Source: Candidatus Cloacimonadota bacterium (GTDB lineage: Bacteria; Cloacimonadota; Cloacimonadia; JGIOTU-2; B8-G9). From it: DNA of 5,648 nt. Made by a program: the position numbers and the translations under genes. Of this stretch, positions 1 to 5,648 are shown piece by piece (the first letter of the stretch is position 1; each line of letters opens with the position of its first letter). The stretch is from NCBI GenBank assembly GCA_003647765.1, contig QMNM01000121.1, positions 1-5,648 of the forward strand, written 5' to 3'. The notes under the pieces are model-generated. The model was not told the DNA's origin. It worked only from the letters and a program-made list of their open reading frames with translations, and ran no database searches.

Positions 1-353
1 GGATTTTTTTCTTTTTTTGCTTTGTCATCTTCAATCATTTGAACTAAACCATCTTTAACTAGTGATTCATATTTGGCTTTTGAAGAAGGTCCAGCAATAT
101 TACCATATACATTTCCATCTCTAAGAAACAGAACAGCTGGTAGTGTATTCATTTGGAAGTATTCACCAGTTCTTTTTTGTTTTTCTATTTCACAAGTGTA
201 AACATCCACCTTACCTTTTAATTGAGACTCAAAGCCTTCAAAAATCGAAATAATCCCATCAAGTGTAGGAATATTCTCAGAATAAAATAAAATAAGTTGT
301 GTTCCCTTATGTGACATTACCTTGTCTATGTTATTATCGTCTAATACAATCAT
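1..353 (-). CDS. Thioredoxin-fold protein lacking CXXC, partial (3' end off window)
   Basis: This leftward gene is open from ATG at 353-351 to the window edge, giving 117 visible residues and no stop. A beta strand LILFY at residues 20-24 is followed by SENIPT where thioredoxins carry WCGPC. Further on, VDVYTCEIEK (49-58) resembles the second core strand. NTLPAVLFLRDG (69-80) matches the thioredoxin cis-proline strand, with Pro72 as the cis-proline. The CXXC pair is absent and Cys54 is the only cysteine seen, so ordinary disulfide reductase activity is unlikely. A binding or scaffold role is an inference. The visible end becomes rich in Lys, Glu and Asp (about 108-117). It is the last visible gene of the operon, 30 bases after the nuclease stop. 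AAAGG at 366-362 is a good ribosome site and fixes the start. The fold call is fairly secure; the function is unknown. Confidence 0.7.
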   Translation of the reverse strand, partial: MIVLDDNNIDKVMSHKGTQLILFYSENIPTLDGIISIFEGFESQLKGKVDVYTCEIEKQKRTGEYFQMNTLPAVLFLRDGNVYGNIAGPSSKAKYESLVKDGLVQMIEDDKAKKEKN

Positions 354-383
354 TGTTTTTCCTTTTTTTATACTAATTATACA

Positions 384-1094
384 TTAATACTCTATATTGT
401 ATTTATCTCTACAAGTGTTGATAAACTTACAATATTCACATGATTTAGAAGGATTCAATTCAAATTCGTCTGTTGCTTCAATAATATTGATTGAAACACC
501 AAGATTATTCCGAAGTTCTATTACATCTTCCAATGTAACGGTTTTGAAAGCATATTTTTGTTCTTCAACAAAATAGTATAATAAATCAACTTCTTTAATT
601 TCTGAATAAGTCTGAAAAAGCCATAACGCATATAGTTCCAACTGTTTGAATTTTTGAGTTGGTCTATATTGACCACTCTTCCAGTCTATAACAGTTGCAA
701 ACTCACCATCCACAGCATAATAGTCTACATAACCATTCACAGCATAATCACCATTTGTTGGTAGTAAATTAGAATCTAGTCTAATTTCTTTTTCAACATT
801 TGTTACTTCAAAACCAAGTGTTAATGCTACATACTCGTTGCTTAAAGTATTCTCTGCATCTTCAATTAGTTTCAATCGGTCAGCAATCTCTACATTATTG
901 TAACCATAAACTTCACCAGCACCACCAGTTAATCTATGAGCAAGATAAGCATGAACAAATCGTCCTCTTTGAAAGAATATAGGATCTCTGTATTCTACAT
1001 CTGGGCTAATTTTATTGACATAAGTAAATTCAAATTGTTTTTGGCAATGTTCAAAAGAGTTAATCTTTGAGAATGAGTATGGAGCGTATTTCAT
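384..1094 (-). CDS. PD-(D/E)XK nuclease, RecB/Cas4-like, with probable Fe-S cysteines
   Basis: This 236-aa protein has the motif order of RecB/Cas4/AddB-type nucleases. The N-terminal FSKINSFEHCQKQF (8-21) resembles the family's opening helix with its first cysteine. RGRFVHAY (43-50) supplies Gly44 and His48. GYVDYY (121-126) gives Asp124, VIDWKSG (135-141) gives the Asp137-x-Lys139 pair, and QLELY (151-155) is the QxxxY motif. Cys17 together with Cys219, Cys222 and Cys228 matches the one-plus-three pattern that holds a 4Fe-4S cluster in Cas4 and AddB. The expected activity is metal-dependent cleavage or end trimming of DNA in phage replication or recombination. The size suits a stand-alone nuclease, and no helicase or cas1/cas2 lies nearby, so this is not evidence for CRISPR. 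CAAAGG at 1106-1101 sets the start. The superfamily call is secure; substrate and exact role are not. Confidence 0.88.
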   Translation of the reverse strand: MKYAPYSFSKINSFEHCQKQFEFTYVNKISPDVEYRDPIFFQRGRFVHAYLAHRLTGGAGEVYGYNNVEIADRLKLIEDAENTLSNEYVALTLGFEVTNVEKEIRLDSNLLPTNGDYAVNGYVDYYAVDGEFATVIDWKSGQYRPTQKFKQLELYALWLFQTYSEIKEVDLLYYFVEEQKYAFKTVTLEDVIELRNNLGVSINIIEATDEFELNPSKSCEYCKFINTCRDKYNIEY

Positions 1095-1115: not shown

Positions 1116-1583
1116 TTAATCCATTTCGTTCCTGATGTGCCAGTCGGCAGATTTAGAAATTTTTATGTTGTAAGTATCTAATGTTTCTAATAGAGAATTT
1201 TTATCACCAAGTAAATAAGAACGACATAATTTATCCGTTGGGACTATTTCCCACTGACCTATTAGTCCATAAGTTACAAGGAAGGCACTAAGCCCAATCC
1301 CATTGTAGAACTTCTCATTGGTGGTATAAACTATTTCTTTTTTTTCTTCATCAACTAAATCAATTCTTAGAGTTGGTTGCCCAGACTCTTCGTCAATATA
1401 CTTACCAATACGACATACAAGTGAAGATTTTAGTTTTAGTTTCATCAATTCAAAGCCATCTACTACAAGTAAATCGTGTAATCTGTATGACATTTTAATT
1501 GATTTTTTGTCAGAAACAAAAATAGAAGAAGAATCGGATAAATTCTTTAGATCCAACCCACCAACATTTTGCTCTTTACTCAT
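1116..1583 (-). CDS. Hypothetical protein, 155 aa, translationally coupled to ClpP-like gene
   Basis: I do not recognise this protein. The frame is open upstream to 1679, but that extension runs through the lysine codons of the ClpP-like gene in another phase and encodes only Lys/Arg-rich sequence. The natural start is therefore ATG at 1583-1581, which begins MSKEQNVGG. It lies one base after the ClpP-like stop (TAACATG). No strong Shine-Dalgarno is present apart from AG-rich sequence inside the upstream gene, so coupled translation is likely. The protein looks soluble and mixed alpha/beta. It has a Ser/Asp-rich N-terminus, a central stretch with alternating hydrophobics (about residues 37-60 and 70-90), two cysteines and a charged C-terminus ending RNEMD. 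No transmembrane segment or known motif was found. Its tight junction suggests work linked to the protease, for example as partner or substrate, but this is inference only. Confidence 0.75.
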   Translation of the reverse strand: MSKEQNVGGLDLKNLSDSSSIFVSDKKSIKMSYRLHDLLVVDGFELMKLKLKSSLVCRIGKYIDEESGQPTLRIDLVDEEKKEIVYTTNEKFYNGIGLSAFLVTYGLIGQWEIVPTDKLCRSYLLGDKNSLLETLDTYNIKISKSADWHIRNEMD

Positions 1584-3286: not shown

Positions 3287-4081
3287 TTATACTTCTTTGA
3301 TTTCAGGGATTAAAGCATCAGTTGGCATAGTGTCAACAATTAATTCTGCCCACTTCATGATATTCATTCTGTCAGTTTCATCAACTTTGAATGTATCATA
3401 CACACCAGCTATAATTTTATCAGAAACAGTATTGAAATCTTCTTCCATATCTGAAATTGTTATACCATCAATAATGATATGTAATAACTCATTATCTTCT
3501 ACACCATCATTAACTTTGACATATGAACCATCTTTATAACCATTCAGTTGTCTAATATGGTTTAATGTATGTTTTGCGACATAGTATGCAGAAATATTAA
3601 AGTCCATTTTTTCTGCCAATAATAATACAAGTTTAAGTGCATTTCCAGGTTGTTGTAGTAAATTATATGCGGAAATCGTTACAAAATTAATCCAATCATT
3701 GGTGTTTAATTCAACATCTCCTAATGGATCAGACATGTCACCAAGACCTTTTTGAGAAAGTGTAAAGAATAATAAATCAGTAAGCTCAATCTTAATGTTT
3801 GCTATTACTGCTGGATGCAAATCTTCCCATTTAACGGAGTCTGTAGTAATATCACCACTCTTACCTTTCCACCATTTCCAACCAGTGTTATGTTTAATTG
3901 TCTTCTGTTTTCCATCAATAGTAACTGTTTCAGAAAATTCAGAATCAATAAGTTCAGCCATTTCTTGCGTTGAAGCAATCATAAAATCAAGCTCTGTTCT
4001 GTTTTCTTTCCAATTTGGAGTAATCAGTTCATTTAATGAATCTTGTAACAGAGTCAATTTATCTAGTGTTTCTTGTGTCAT
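3287..4081 (-). CDS. Dimeric-type dUTPase / gp56-like dCTPase-dUTPase
   Basis: This 264-aa protein carries the all-alpha NTP pyrophosphatase pattern of dimeric dUTPases and T4 gp56. STQEMAELIDSEF (37-49) supplies the first acidic pair, Glu40 and Glu43. GWKWWKG (67-73) is the conserved Trp/Lys segment. IKIELTDLLFF (96-106) supplies Glu99 and Asp102 of the second metal-binding helix. AKHTLNHIRQLNGYKDGSY (169-187) is the characteristic AKxxxNxxRQxxGYxxGxY substrate region. The expected reaction is hydrolysis of dUTP, and perhaps dCTP, to the monophosphate plus pyrophosphate, keeping these bases out of phage DNA. Whether dCTP is a substrate cannot be read here. About 75 residues follow the GxY motif, whereas T4 gp56 (about 171 aa) ends near it. 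It is the first gene of the leftward operon, and AAAGG at 4094-4090 sets the start. The family call is strong. Confidence 0.85.
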   Translation of the reverse strand: MTQETLDKLTLLQDSLNELITPNWKENRTELDFMIASTQEMAELIDSEFSETVTIDGKQKTIKHNTGWKWWKGKSGDITTDSVKWEDLHPAVIANIKIELTDLLFFTLSQKGLGDMSDPLGDVELNTNDWINFVTISAYNLLQQPGNALKLVLLLAEKMDFNISAYYVAKHTLNHIRQLNGYKDGSYVKVNDGVEDNELLHIIIDGITISDMEEDFNTVSDKIIAGVYDTFKVDETDRMNIMKWAELIVDTMPTDALIPEIKEV

Positions 4082-4139: not shown

Positions 4140-4156
4140 AGAAAAGTGATTTTATC

Positions 4157-4164
4157 TATAAATA
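4157..4164 (+). promoter_or_regulatory. T4-type late promoter (TATAAATA) for the endonuclease
   Basis: A perfect late-promoter box reads rightward, 115 bases before the endonuclease start, within TTTTATCTATAAATAA. In T4 such boxes are read by the gp55-containing polymerase and transcription starts several bases downstream, so the leader would begin near 4170. The box alone is weak evidence in AT-rich DNA. Its intergenic position and its match to the flanks of the boxes at 4250-4257 and 5222-5229 make it credible. Confidence 0.65.
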
Positions 4165-4178
4165 AGAGAAAGGATAAT

Positions 4179-4246
4179 GTGAGTAATCTTTAAGAATGCC
4201 CGTTCTTAAAGAAAATGGTGGAAAATAGATACCATCTGTCCTCACA
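4179..4246. other. Predicted three-way-junction stem structure in the intergenic leader
   Basis: A closing stem pairs TGTGAG (4179-4184) with CTCACA (4241-4246). Inside it, CTTTAAGAA pairs with TTCTTAAAG around a TGCCCG loop (about 4188-4211), a nine-base-pair hairpin extendable by one T-G pair to leave a GCCC loop. A second, weaker hairpin pairs ATGGT with ACCAT (about 4215-4235). No T-run follows the hairpins on either strand, so a normal intrinsic terminator is not indicated. The structure would lie in the leader of either late transcript. Its function is unknown. Confidence 0.55.
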
Positions 4247-4249
4247 GTT

Positions 4250-4257
4250 TATTTATA
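4250..4257 (-). promoter_or_regulatory. T4-type late promoter facing left, toward the dUTPase-like operon
   Basis: The complement of TATTTATA is a perfect TATAAATA reading leftward. Its flanks on that strand (ATTTTATTCTATAAATAA) nearly equal those of the rightward box at 4157-4164. Transcripts would start near 4243, cross the structured region and the opposing promoter, and enter the leftward operon with a leader of about 160 bases. The chance of a random match is not negligible at this base composition. Confidence 0.5.
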
Positions 4258-4278
4258 GAATAAAATAAGGAAAATAGA

Positions 4279-5208
4279 ATGAAAAAAGAATATAAATACC
4301 ATTATGTTTATAGAATTACAAATATTAAGACAAACTACTACTATTATGGTAGTAAAAGTACAAATGAATTACCAAGTAACAACATAGGGAGAAATTACTT
4401 TTCTTCTTCATCAAACCAATTCTTCATTGAAGACCAGAAGATCAATCCACAAGATTATAAATATAAAGTGATTAAAGTATTTAGTTCATCAAGAGAAGAT
4501 GCAATCAATTTAGAAAGTATCCTACATTTAAAATTTGATGTCAAAAACCATACAAAGTTTATTAACAAGGCTAACCAAACACCAAATGGGTTTGATATGA
4601 CTGGAAAAGTGGTAATCAAAGATAAAGGTAATGGAAAAACAACTATTATTCCAATCAATTTATATGATAATAATATTCATGAATCTGTTCATGCAGGTAA
4701 AATAACAGTATTTAACAAAAAGAAGAATAAATATAAATTTGTTTCAGTTGAAGAGTATAATGCAAATGATAACTATAAATCTATACATTCAGGTAAGGTA
4801 TCAGTTCTTGATACAAGGGATAATACTAGACATTATATTGATACGGATAAACTACATAAATCAAAATATTATAAAGCTACTACATTTGGTCAAGTAACCG
4901 TGTATGATATAATAAATAAAATAGTTAAAAATGTTTCAAAACATGATTATGACAATAACTCAAGCCTTGTATTTATTGATAGTAAAGTATTCAAAATATA
5001 TAATTCAAATGGAGAGCTAGTTGACATTGCTTACGGTAATTTTATAAACTTTTGTAATACAAATGGGTACCCTTCAAGTGCATTTTCTAATTCTGCAAGA
5101 GCGAATGGCGCACCGATATACCAATCGTTGAAAAGTAATACAAGTAAAAAAATGAAATACAAAGGTTGGTTTGTAATTTCAAAAAAAATAACTAGTTTGG
5201 TGGAATAA
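4279..5208 (+). CDS. Free-standing GIY-YIG homing-type endonuclease with tandem repeats
   Basis: This 309-aa protein opens with a GIY-YIG nuclease domain (about 5-100). YVYRI (9-13) and YYYG (21-24) form the two signature strands at the usual spacing. Arg38 in IGRNYF is a candidate catalytic arginine, Glu79 in NLES a likely metal ligand, and Asn97 or Asn103 a candidate late motif. Residues 109-234 are four tandem repeats of 31-32 residues, each starting GK/GQ-[VI]-x-V. Residues 235-309 begin VFKIYNSNGELV and end KYKGWFVI, resembling the C-terminal DNA-recognition module of phage homing endonucleases. The expected role is site-specific cleavage of related genomes lacking the gene. It stands alone between a leftward operon and a rightward virion gene, with a late promoter upstream and AAGG at 4267-4270. 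The catalytic-domain call is secure; the target site is unknown. Confidence 0.85.
   Translation: MKKEYKYHYVYRITNIKTNYYYYGSKSTNELPSNNIGRNYFSSSSNQFFIEDQKINPQDYKYKVIKVFSSSREDAINLESILHLKFDVKNHTKFINKANQTPNGFDMTGKVVIKDKGNGKTTIIPINLYDNNIHESVHAGKITVFNKKKNKYKFVSVEEYNANDNYKSIHSGKVSVLDTRDNTRHYIDTDKLHKSKYYKATTFGQVTVYDIINKIVKNVSKHDYDNNSSLVFIDSKVFKIYNSNGELVDIAYGNFINFCNTNGYPSSAFSNSARANGAPIYQSLKSNTSKKMKYKGWFVISKKITSLVE
4603..4980 (+). repeat. Four tandem protein repeats in the GIY-YIG endonuclease
   Basis: The coding stretch for residues 109-234 contains four diverged repeats starting at Gly109, Gly140, Gly172 and Gly204. Each begins G[KQ][VI]x[VI], then a polar Asp/Asn/Lys turn, a short second strand, and a segment with Tyr and Asn before the next Gly. 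The DNA has diverged and only the protein pattern repeats. Similar GKVxVxD repeats are known to me from phage endonuclease-like proteins, where DNA recognition is plausible but unproven. Confidence 0.7.
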
Positions 5209-5221
5209 ATAAGTTTTATAT

Positions 5222-5229
5222 TATAAATA
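5222..5229 (+). promoter_or_regulatory. T4-type late promoter for the virion protein gene
   Basis: TATAAATA lies 19 bases before the ATG at 5249, in the 40-base gap after the endonuclease. The flanks (TTTTATATTATAAATAAACT) resemble those of the leftward box at 4257-4250. The position is right for a late structural gene and leaves a very short leader containing AAGG. Confidence 0.75.
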
Positions 5230-5248: not shown

Positions 5249-5648
5249 ATGTCAAAAGATTATATATTACACCAACATCTTAAGATGTCCCCAAACGCAC
5301 AAGTTAAAAATTTAGTGCCTGAAACTCTTTCAGAAGTACCAACAGAAGCTGAATGGAAACTTGGAAGAATATGGTTCAACAGCACACTTGGTAAATTCCA
5401 ATGCGTATCTTTAAAAATGGATTCTAATACTGGATTACCAATTGAACCAAACGAATTAGAAGTAATTTTATTAGGGTCTGATGAATTAGGATTTACTAGA
5501 GATGGAGAATATTATCCGGATGGGTTATTCAACTTCAATACAACAACCAAAGTATCACTAGCAGTTGATGAAATTAATGAAGCACTTAAAGATTTAGCAC
5601 CTGCAGAAGCAACAGGACTAAATGGTGATTTAGATATTACTACTACTA
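5249..5648 (+). CDS. Probable virion structural / tail-fibre-type protein, partial
   Basis: This rightward gene starts at ATG 5249 and is open to the edge, giving 133 residues and no stop. AAGG at 5237-5240 lies eight bases upstream, and a perfect late promoter box at 5222-5229 precedes it. The segment WKLGRIWFNSTLGKFQCV (36-53) matches the GRIWFN...KFQ pattern often seen at the start of T4-like virion and fibre proteins, where a short strand pair packs on a preceding domain. Residues about 100-126 (VSLAVDEINEALKDLAPA then TGLNGDL) resemble the linker seen in such structural proteins before repeated beta-rich domains. Asn, Thr, Leu and Gly are common and no catalytic motif or signal peptide is visible. 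The late promoter fits a structural role. Which particle component it forms cannot be told from this fragment. Confidence 0.65.
   Translation, partial: MSKDYILHQHLKMSPNAQVKNLVPETLSEVPTEAEWKLGRIWFNSTLGKFQCVSLKMDSNTGLPIEPNELEVILLGSDELGFTRDGEYYPDGLFNFNTTTKVSLAVDEINEALKDLAPAEATGLNGDLDITTT

Follow-up and report, generated by a model that had tools for sequence, protein, structure and literature searches.

What is made where two late-type promoters face each other between a dUTPase-like gene and the gene for a homing endonuclease is the question raised by this locus. The stretch of DNA that we analyzed, called the window here, is 5,648 nucleotides long and makes up contig C147 in its entirety, one of 360 contigs in a 1.97-Mb assembly; because its genes look phage-like, we regard it as a phage contig that was binned with a bacterium. 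A sequence search of the window located TATAAATA at 4157-4164 (+) and 4257-4250 (-), exactly where the original prediction had placed two facing boxes as arms of an inverted repeat, and the arms themselves (4150-4165 and 4249-4264) are 16 nt long, 88% complementary and separated by 83 nt. The window contains five matches to TATAAATA compared with a mean of 1.12 in dinucleotide shuffles, 1/200 of which reached five; the matches at 4291 and 4456 lie inside the endonuclease ORF. Another, at 5222-5229 (+), lies ~20 bases 5' of the start of the next ORF at 5249 and is likely a late promoter there. An equally good inverted repeat arose in 6/300 dinucleotide shuffles of the intergenic region; the arms alone are out of the ordinary, yet not decisive, and the decisive evidence lies between the boxes and in the relatives of the locus. 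Transcript starts estimated at ~4170 (rightward) and 4243-4245 (leftward) would be consistent with T4-type spacing. The features of the locus are as follows.

3287..4081, minus strand: dUTPase-like gene (PF08761, E 4.7e-09), possible read-through gene of the antisense transcript
4157..4164, plus strand: late-type promoter TATAAATA, proposed promoter of the endonuclease mRNA
4179..4245, minus strand: putative antisense 'anti-RBS' RNA with a three-way junction (covariance model R1, 65.5 bits, the window copy belonging to the R1 training set)
4245-4241/4183-4179, minus strand: P1 helix (RNA fold)
4240-4236 (GACAG), 4214-4212 (TTT) and 4187-4184 (ATTA), minus strand: junctions (RNA fold)
4215..4235, minus strand: first hairpin, with guide loop UCUAUUUUCC at 4229-4220 (complementarity to mRNA 4269-4278)
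4188..4211, minus strand: second hairpin, structural in class A (fold; covarying helix 3)
4250..4257, minus strand: late-type promoter TATAAATA, 4 nt before the RNA 5' end, proposed antisense RNA promoter
4269..4278, plus strand: target ribosome-binding region GGAAAATAGA, directly before the AUG at 4279 (sequence; exact match to the hairpin copy)
4279..5208, plus strand: GIY-YIG-type homing endonuclease of 309 aa, target gene (phrog_314, E 2.5e-10)

RNA folding arranges the 83 nt between the arms into a three-way junction, and we predict a 67-nt RNA gene between the boxes on the minus strand (4245-4179). Its guide loop UCUAUUUUCC is complementary to GGAAAAUAGA (4269-4278), the ten bases before the endonuclease AUG, in 10/10 Watson-Crick pairs, with a predicted loop-RBS duplex energy of -13.0 kcal/mol (duplexfold). 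The original prediction, which had proposed that the two transcripts share a complementary leader, missed this conserved folded RNA, whose loop perfectly complements the endonuclease ribosome-binding site (RBS). A second covariance model, R2, built without the window copy, recovers the element on the minus strand only (E 3.6e-07). No terminator was found 3' of the RNA in the window, so that it may serve as leader to a dUTPase message.

Scanned for paired boxes, the same assembly yielded one other clear case, contig C231 (L004/L014), in which the same junction lies between facing TATAAATA boxes before a different ORF with a YVYKITN start. A pattern derived from the window and C231 identified a copy before each of three GIY-YIG genes on contig L030 and another before an endonuclease related to phrog_559 on L031; a structural descriptor run over the collected loci returned exactly the window, C231, L030 and L031 copies, with zero spurious sites, and in both the descriptor and the covariance searches the element behaves as a discrete unit. 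Pattern matches at L023-L029 and L032-L035 were judged to be chance and rejected as copies. With scaffold-only DNA patterns and covariance models we collected at least 66 distinct related copies, mostly from viral metagenome contigs; the patterns behind most of these fixed the scaffold only, leaving loop and RBS free. Two degenerate copies with GTTG for GTTTC and no clear target (L142 2746-2804 (-) and L151 5216-5274 (+)) are possibly decaying. The consensus on the R strand reads 5'-P1-GACA(G)-hairpin 1-UUUC-hairpin 2-GAUUA-P1', and the copies are found in two arrangements. The 19 class A copies, that of the window among them, are divergent from their target genes and use hairpin 1 as the guide. 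The 45 class B copies form the leaders of their own targets, on the target's strand and most often 23-41 nt before the gene, with hairpin 2 as the guide.

The fold is supported by covariation in both arrangements. Among 14 class A copies, 15/17 pairs display two-sided changes and 94% of cells are paired, giving a covariation score of 0.579 compared with 0.195 when shuffled and at most 0.18 when slid. A score of 0.577, compared with 0.161 when shuffled, came from 44 distinct aligned rows that are mostly class B; this alignment was fitted to the model, which favors structure, although the two-sided changes are still real letters. Rfam 15 offered no counterpart: the window at E<=1 yielded just a sub-threshold snoR19 match elsewhere in the window, and ten loci with other copies yielded tRNAs only at the gathering threshold. 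Because of the three-way junction we considered hammerhead-like ribozymes, whose core letters differ from the core of this RNA, and rejected them for this misfit and the lack of an Rfam match. In cultured phages, blastn for close relatives gave only a weak match to the endonuclease gene, element-sized queries gave chance matches only, and the endonuclease relatives of Vibrio, Alteromonas and Escherichia phages lack the element by both descriptor scan and model. An R2 scan of genomes of the host phylum gave no match under strict filters that also lost the window's own copy. A description of the family was likewise not found in the open-licence literature, an absence that is weak evidence, and the RNA scaffold is apparently undescribed.

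Correspondence between the guide loop and the RBS extends well beyond the window. Loop and target are likewise complementary, with letters that differ from copy to copy, in C231 (AGUAAAUCC/GGAUUUACU), L030b (UGUUAAUCC/GGAUUAACA), L031 (AUUGCUCC/GGAGCAAU) and L062 (UGUUUGUGU/ACACAAACA), and the majority of targets fall roughly between -13 and -1 relative to the start codon. The mean longest Watson-Crick run was 7.95 for class A hairpin 1 compared with 4.55 when targets were permuted, and 6.67 for class B hairpin 2 compared with 4.23 (0/10000 in each case), where the relatedness of some copies means that permutation P values are not strictly independent. The cross-controls with the non-guide hairpins were null for class B hairpin 1 and near null for class A hairpin 2 (57/10000, attributed to relatedness). 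Predicted duplex energies follow the same trend (-12.2 vs -5.9 in class A and -10.5 vs -7.4 in class B; 0/5000). Among copies with runs of 6 or more, the guides are distinct in 17/17 of class A and 38/42 of class B, and this diversity implies that loop and RBS change together and that the match is not a single inherited sequence. L044 and L058, for example, share a scaffold and differ jointly in loop and RBS (CCUACAU/AUGUAGG vs CCCUAUU/AAUAGGG). The guide of L030a is weak, at 5 nt, and a clear target was not found for L154, L137 and L157. On the strength of these sequence comparisons, we regard the fold, the family and the gene-matched loop as established beyond reasonable doubt.

The strand on which the RNA operates bears directly on the role of the leftward promoter. 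Gene orientation settles the strand in class B; counts of G-U versus A-C in the stems left the strand undecided. Our initial reading was of a sense-strand leader carrying a copy of the RBS, and this was dropped once class B showed that the complementary strand is commoner. Both boxes look like real promoters, as had been proposed: a TAAATA-type box lies 4-8 nt before the R-strand 5' end in 13/19 class A copies, compared with a mean of 0.24 and a maximum of 3 after shuffling, and on the gene side in 17/19, compared with a mean of 1.26 and a maximum of 6. Relatives that lacked one box while keeping the genes had been named as evidence against paired promoters, and most class A copies retain both facing boxes (12/19). 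This recurrence identifies facing promoters as the usual architecture around the RNA, in light of which the window's leftward box is best read as the antisense RNA promoter. The product of the leftward promoter is thus likely an antisense RNA rather than chiefly a message for the dUTPase. Weighing against this, transcription in class A seems to run on both strands, and the sense leader can adopt the mirror fold. Of the suggestion that late transcription might couple or antagonize the two sides, antagonism of the transcripts was the right kind of idea, but coupling to the dUTPase operon is not what the copies have in common, because C231, L057, L059, L062 and L064 have no convincing leftward gene.

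We favor, at a probability of roughly three in four, the explanation that a conserved RNA transcribed leftward from TATAAATA blocks the endonuclease RBS with its loop and keeps the selfish nuclease low. Transcription from the box at 4257-4250 would yield an RNA that starts at 4245 and extends to 4179 or beyond (~67 nt or more), in which the fixed three-way-junction scaffold would present the gene-specific 10-nt loop UCUAUUUUCC for pairing with GGAAAAUAGA, the RBS just before the homing endonuclease AUG. The rightward TATAAATA would drive the endonuclease mRNA, and the two transcripts would pair loop-to-RBS, possibly followed by duplex formation across the shared leader, so that translation would be blocked. 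Since the loop is complementary to the neighbor's translation start, the RNA most likely switches off the neighbor's translation; since both window promoters look late, the silencer would be transcribed in the same phase as the endonuclease message. In class B, the nuclease mRNA would carry this RNA as its sense-strand 5' leader, whose second loop would pair with the mRNA's own RBS in cis, whereas in class A an antisense RNA from the opposite promoter would cover the RBS. Loop-RBS complementarity, the coordinated change of loop and RBS, the fold, the family and the promoter positions can be read from the letters themselves, and from them we infer expression, repression and timing. A regulatory role is likely on these grounds, and action of class A copies in trans, also inferred, is somewhat less certain. 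Conservation of the junction points to a binding partner or to a tertiary fold that is essential.

Other explanations assign the boxes or the strand differently. In T4, RBS hairpins that late transcripts bypass keep homing endonucleases in check, and the corresponding design has been described for I-TevI, segB, mobE, e and soc (PMC2988022, PMC3014915). A stage switch of this type, which we consider unlikely here, would put the rightward late promoter within a long hairpin, in its 5' arm, with the 3' arm (4249-4266) covering the RBS, so that read-through transcripts would be masked, late transcripts without the 5' arm would be translated and the leftward box would be a mere complement. The outer arms do pair in the fold of 4145-4278 (z -4.7); at C231 the SD itself is paired to the arm, and a gene on the same strand precedes the element. 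The SD of the window (4267-4271), however, lies just beyond the end of the arm at 4264-4266, and with a divergent gene upstream no read-through is evident; moreover, the boxes of most class A copies form no such arms, and the switch leaves the inner three-way junction and the RBS copy unexplained. An RBS-sequestering read-through hairpin was thus not found in the window and is possible in C231, where, as in some other copies, it could form an extra layer.

That the functional class A strand is instead the sense leader, acting as an RBS-copy decoy or with a loop that guides a protein to DNA at the gene start, strikes us as distinctly unlikely. Read on the sense strand, the hairpin does duplicate the RBS, and for guidance at the DNA level either strand would match. 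Class B, however, relies on the opposite strand, and its loop is complementary to the RBS, not identical; R2, a model built mostly from class B copies, recovers the window on that opposite strand only; and the placement of the targets relative to the start codon fits translation and not DNA recognition. Very improbable, in our judgment, is a pair of ordinary divergent late promoters whose overlap and fold are incidental, or whose leftward transcript just expresses the dUTPase operon. Both boxes match the late-promoter consensus and the dUTPase-like gene does lie leftward, but the intervening RNA is conserved across dozens of unrelated settings, its helices covarying and its loops matched to the RBS, and several copies have no leftward gene, so that this reading was already disfavored.

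The genes next to the RNA copies cover several protein families. Profile searches assigned GIY-YIG or homing-endonuclease targets to the window, L049, L052, L092, L100, L129, L150 and, weakly, L159, and HNH, endonuclease, NUMOD or related targets to L031, L048, L083, L088, L094, L101, L104, L108, L117, L130, L136, L149, L152 and L118. TnpB-type targets with a PF07282 domain were detected by profile at L057 and L061, with L050 and L053 similar by eye; these four TnpB-like (RuvC/TNB) genes sit in viral contigs. That TnpB-like genes and homing endonucleases have this RNA in common suggests shared regulation of unrelated mobile nucleases. Replication initiator or primosomal proteins (L058, L126, L134, L139) and tail or DUF5055 proteins (L071 and L077, with L045 and L046 similar by eye) are also targets, and the remaining targets had no family match in the profile search. 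The copies before these replication-initiation and tail genes are of class B, i.e. ordinary phage genes may be regulated too, or former nuclease sites may be marked. From this range, the RNA is mainly, not exclusively, a companion of mobile nucleases. The phage contig L030, with its three GIY-YIG genes that each have their own RNA copy, also carries (1-783 (-) and 4544-5767 (+)) an apparent intein fragment fused to terminase-like sequence and a threonyl-tRNA synthetase-like ORF. A second, different structured leader in the same assembly (L013 1240-1404 in C228; L003 ~1170-1330, minus strand, in C243) is common to two endonuclease genes and consists of TATAAATA, GAGGyTTTTTyACTAAGACTTCTA ... GGGGTCTGAACTTTTAGT and then a hairpin over the RBS; neither example matched model R1.

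Antisense control of mobile-element enzymes is known from IS10 RNA-OUT/RNA-IN. The RNA described here appears similar in that a divergent antisense RNA would pair via its loop with the translation start of a mobile-element enzyme; unlike in IS10, the guide does not arise from the overlap itself but is an additional, separate copy of the RBS complement, held in a conserved three-way junction, and the scaffold is common to unrelated nuclease families and would also act in cis. Riboswitch leaders such as SAM-II and preQ1 mask the RBS by a loop or pseudoknot, and the class B copies resemble them in being structured leaders with a loop complementary to the RBS further along; the conserved junctions would be compatible with ligand binding. 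Unlike in riboswitches, the loop is re-tailored for each gene and the RNA also occurs antisense to its target. With T4 I-TevI, segB and Aeh1 mobE it would share the combination of RNA structure and a late promoter limiting translation of a phage homing endonuclease, but those systems are simple gene-specific sense-strand hairpins with neither a conserved scaffold nor an antisense RNA.

To our knowledge, restraint of phage selfish nucleases is known for only a few T4 examples. A broader reading, which we advance tentatively, is that the family represents a widespread, re-programmable phage RNA regulator in which a conserved core senses a metabolite or a phage or host protein, for instance, or needs a protein partner, and an exchangeable loop is re-matched to each gene, in cis or antisense, mainly to restrain GIY-YIG, HNH-type and TnpB nucleases. 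The near-invariant core poses the question of its binding partner. One scaffold that stands before nucleases of unrelated folds, with its loop fitted to each start, would provide a testable form of control across many phages, and its rule (a conserved core and an exchangeable anti-RBS loop, on either strand) allows targets to be predicted from sequence and may be usable as a designable translational switch.
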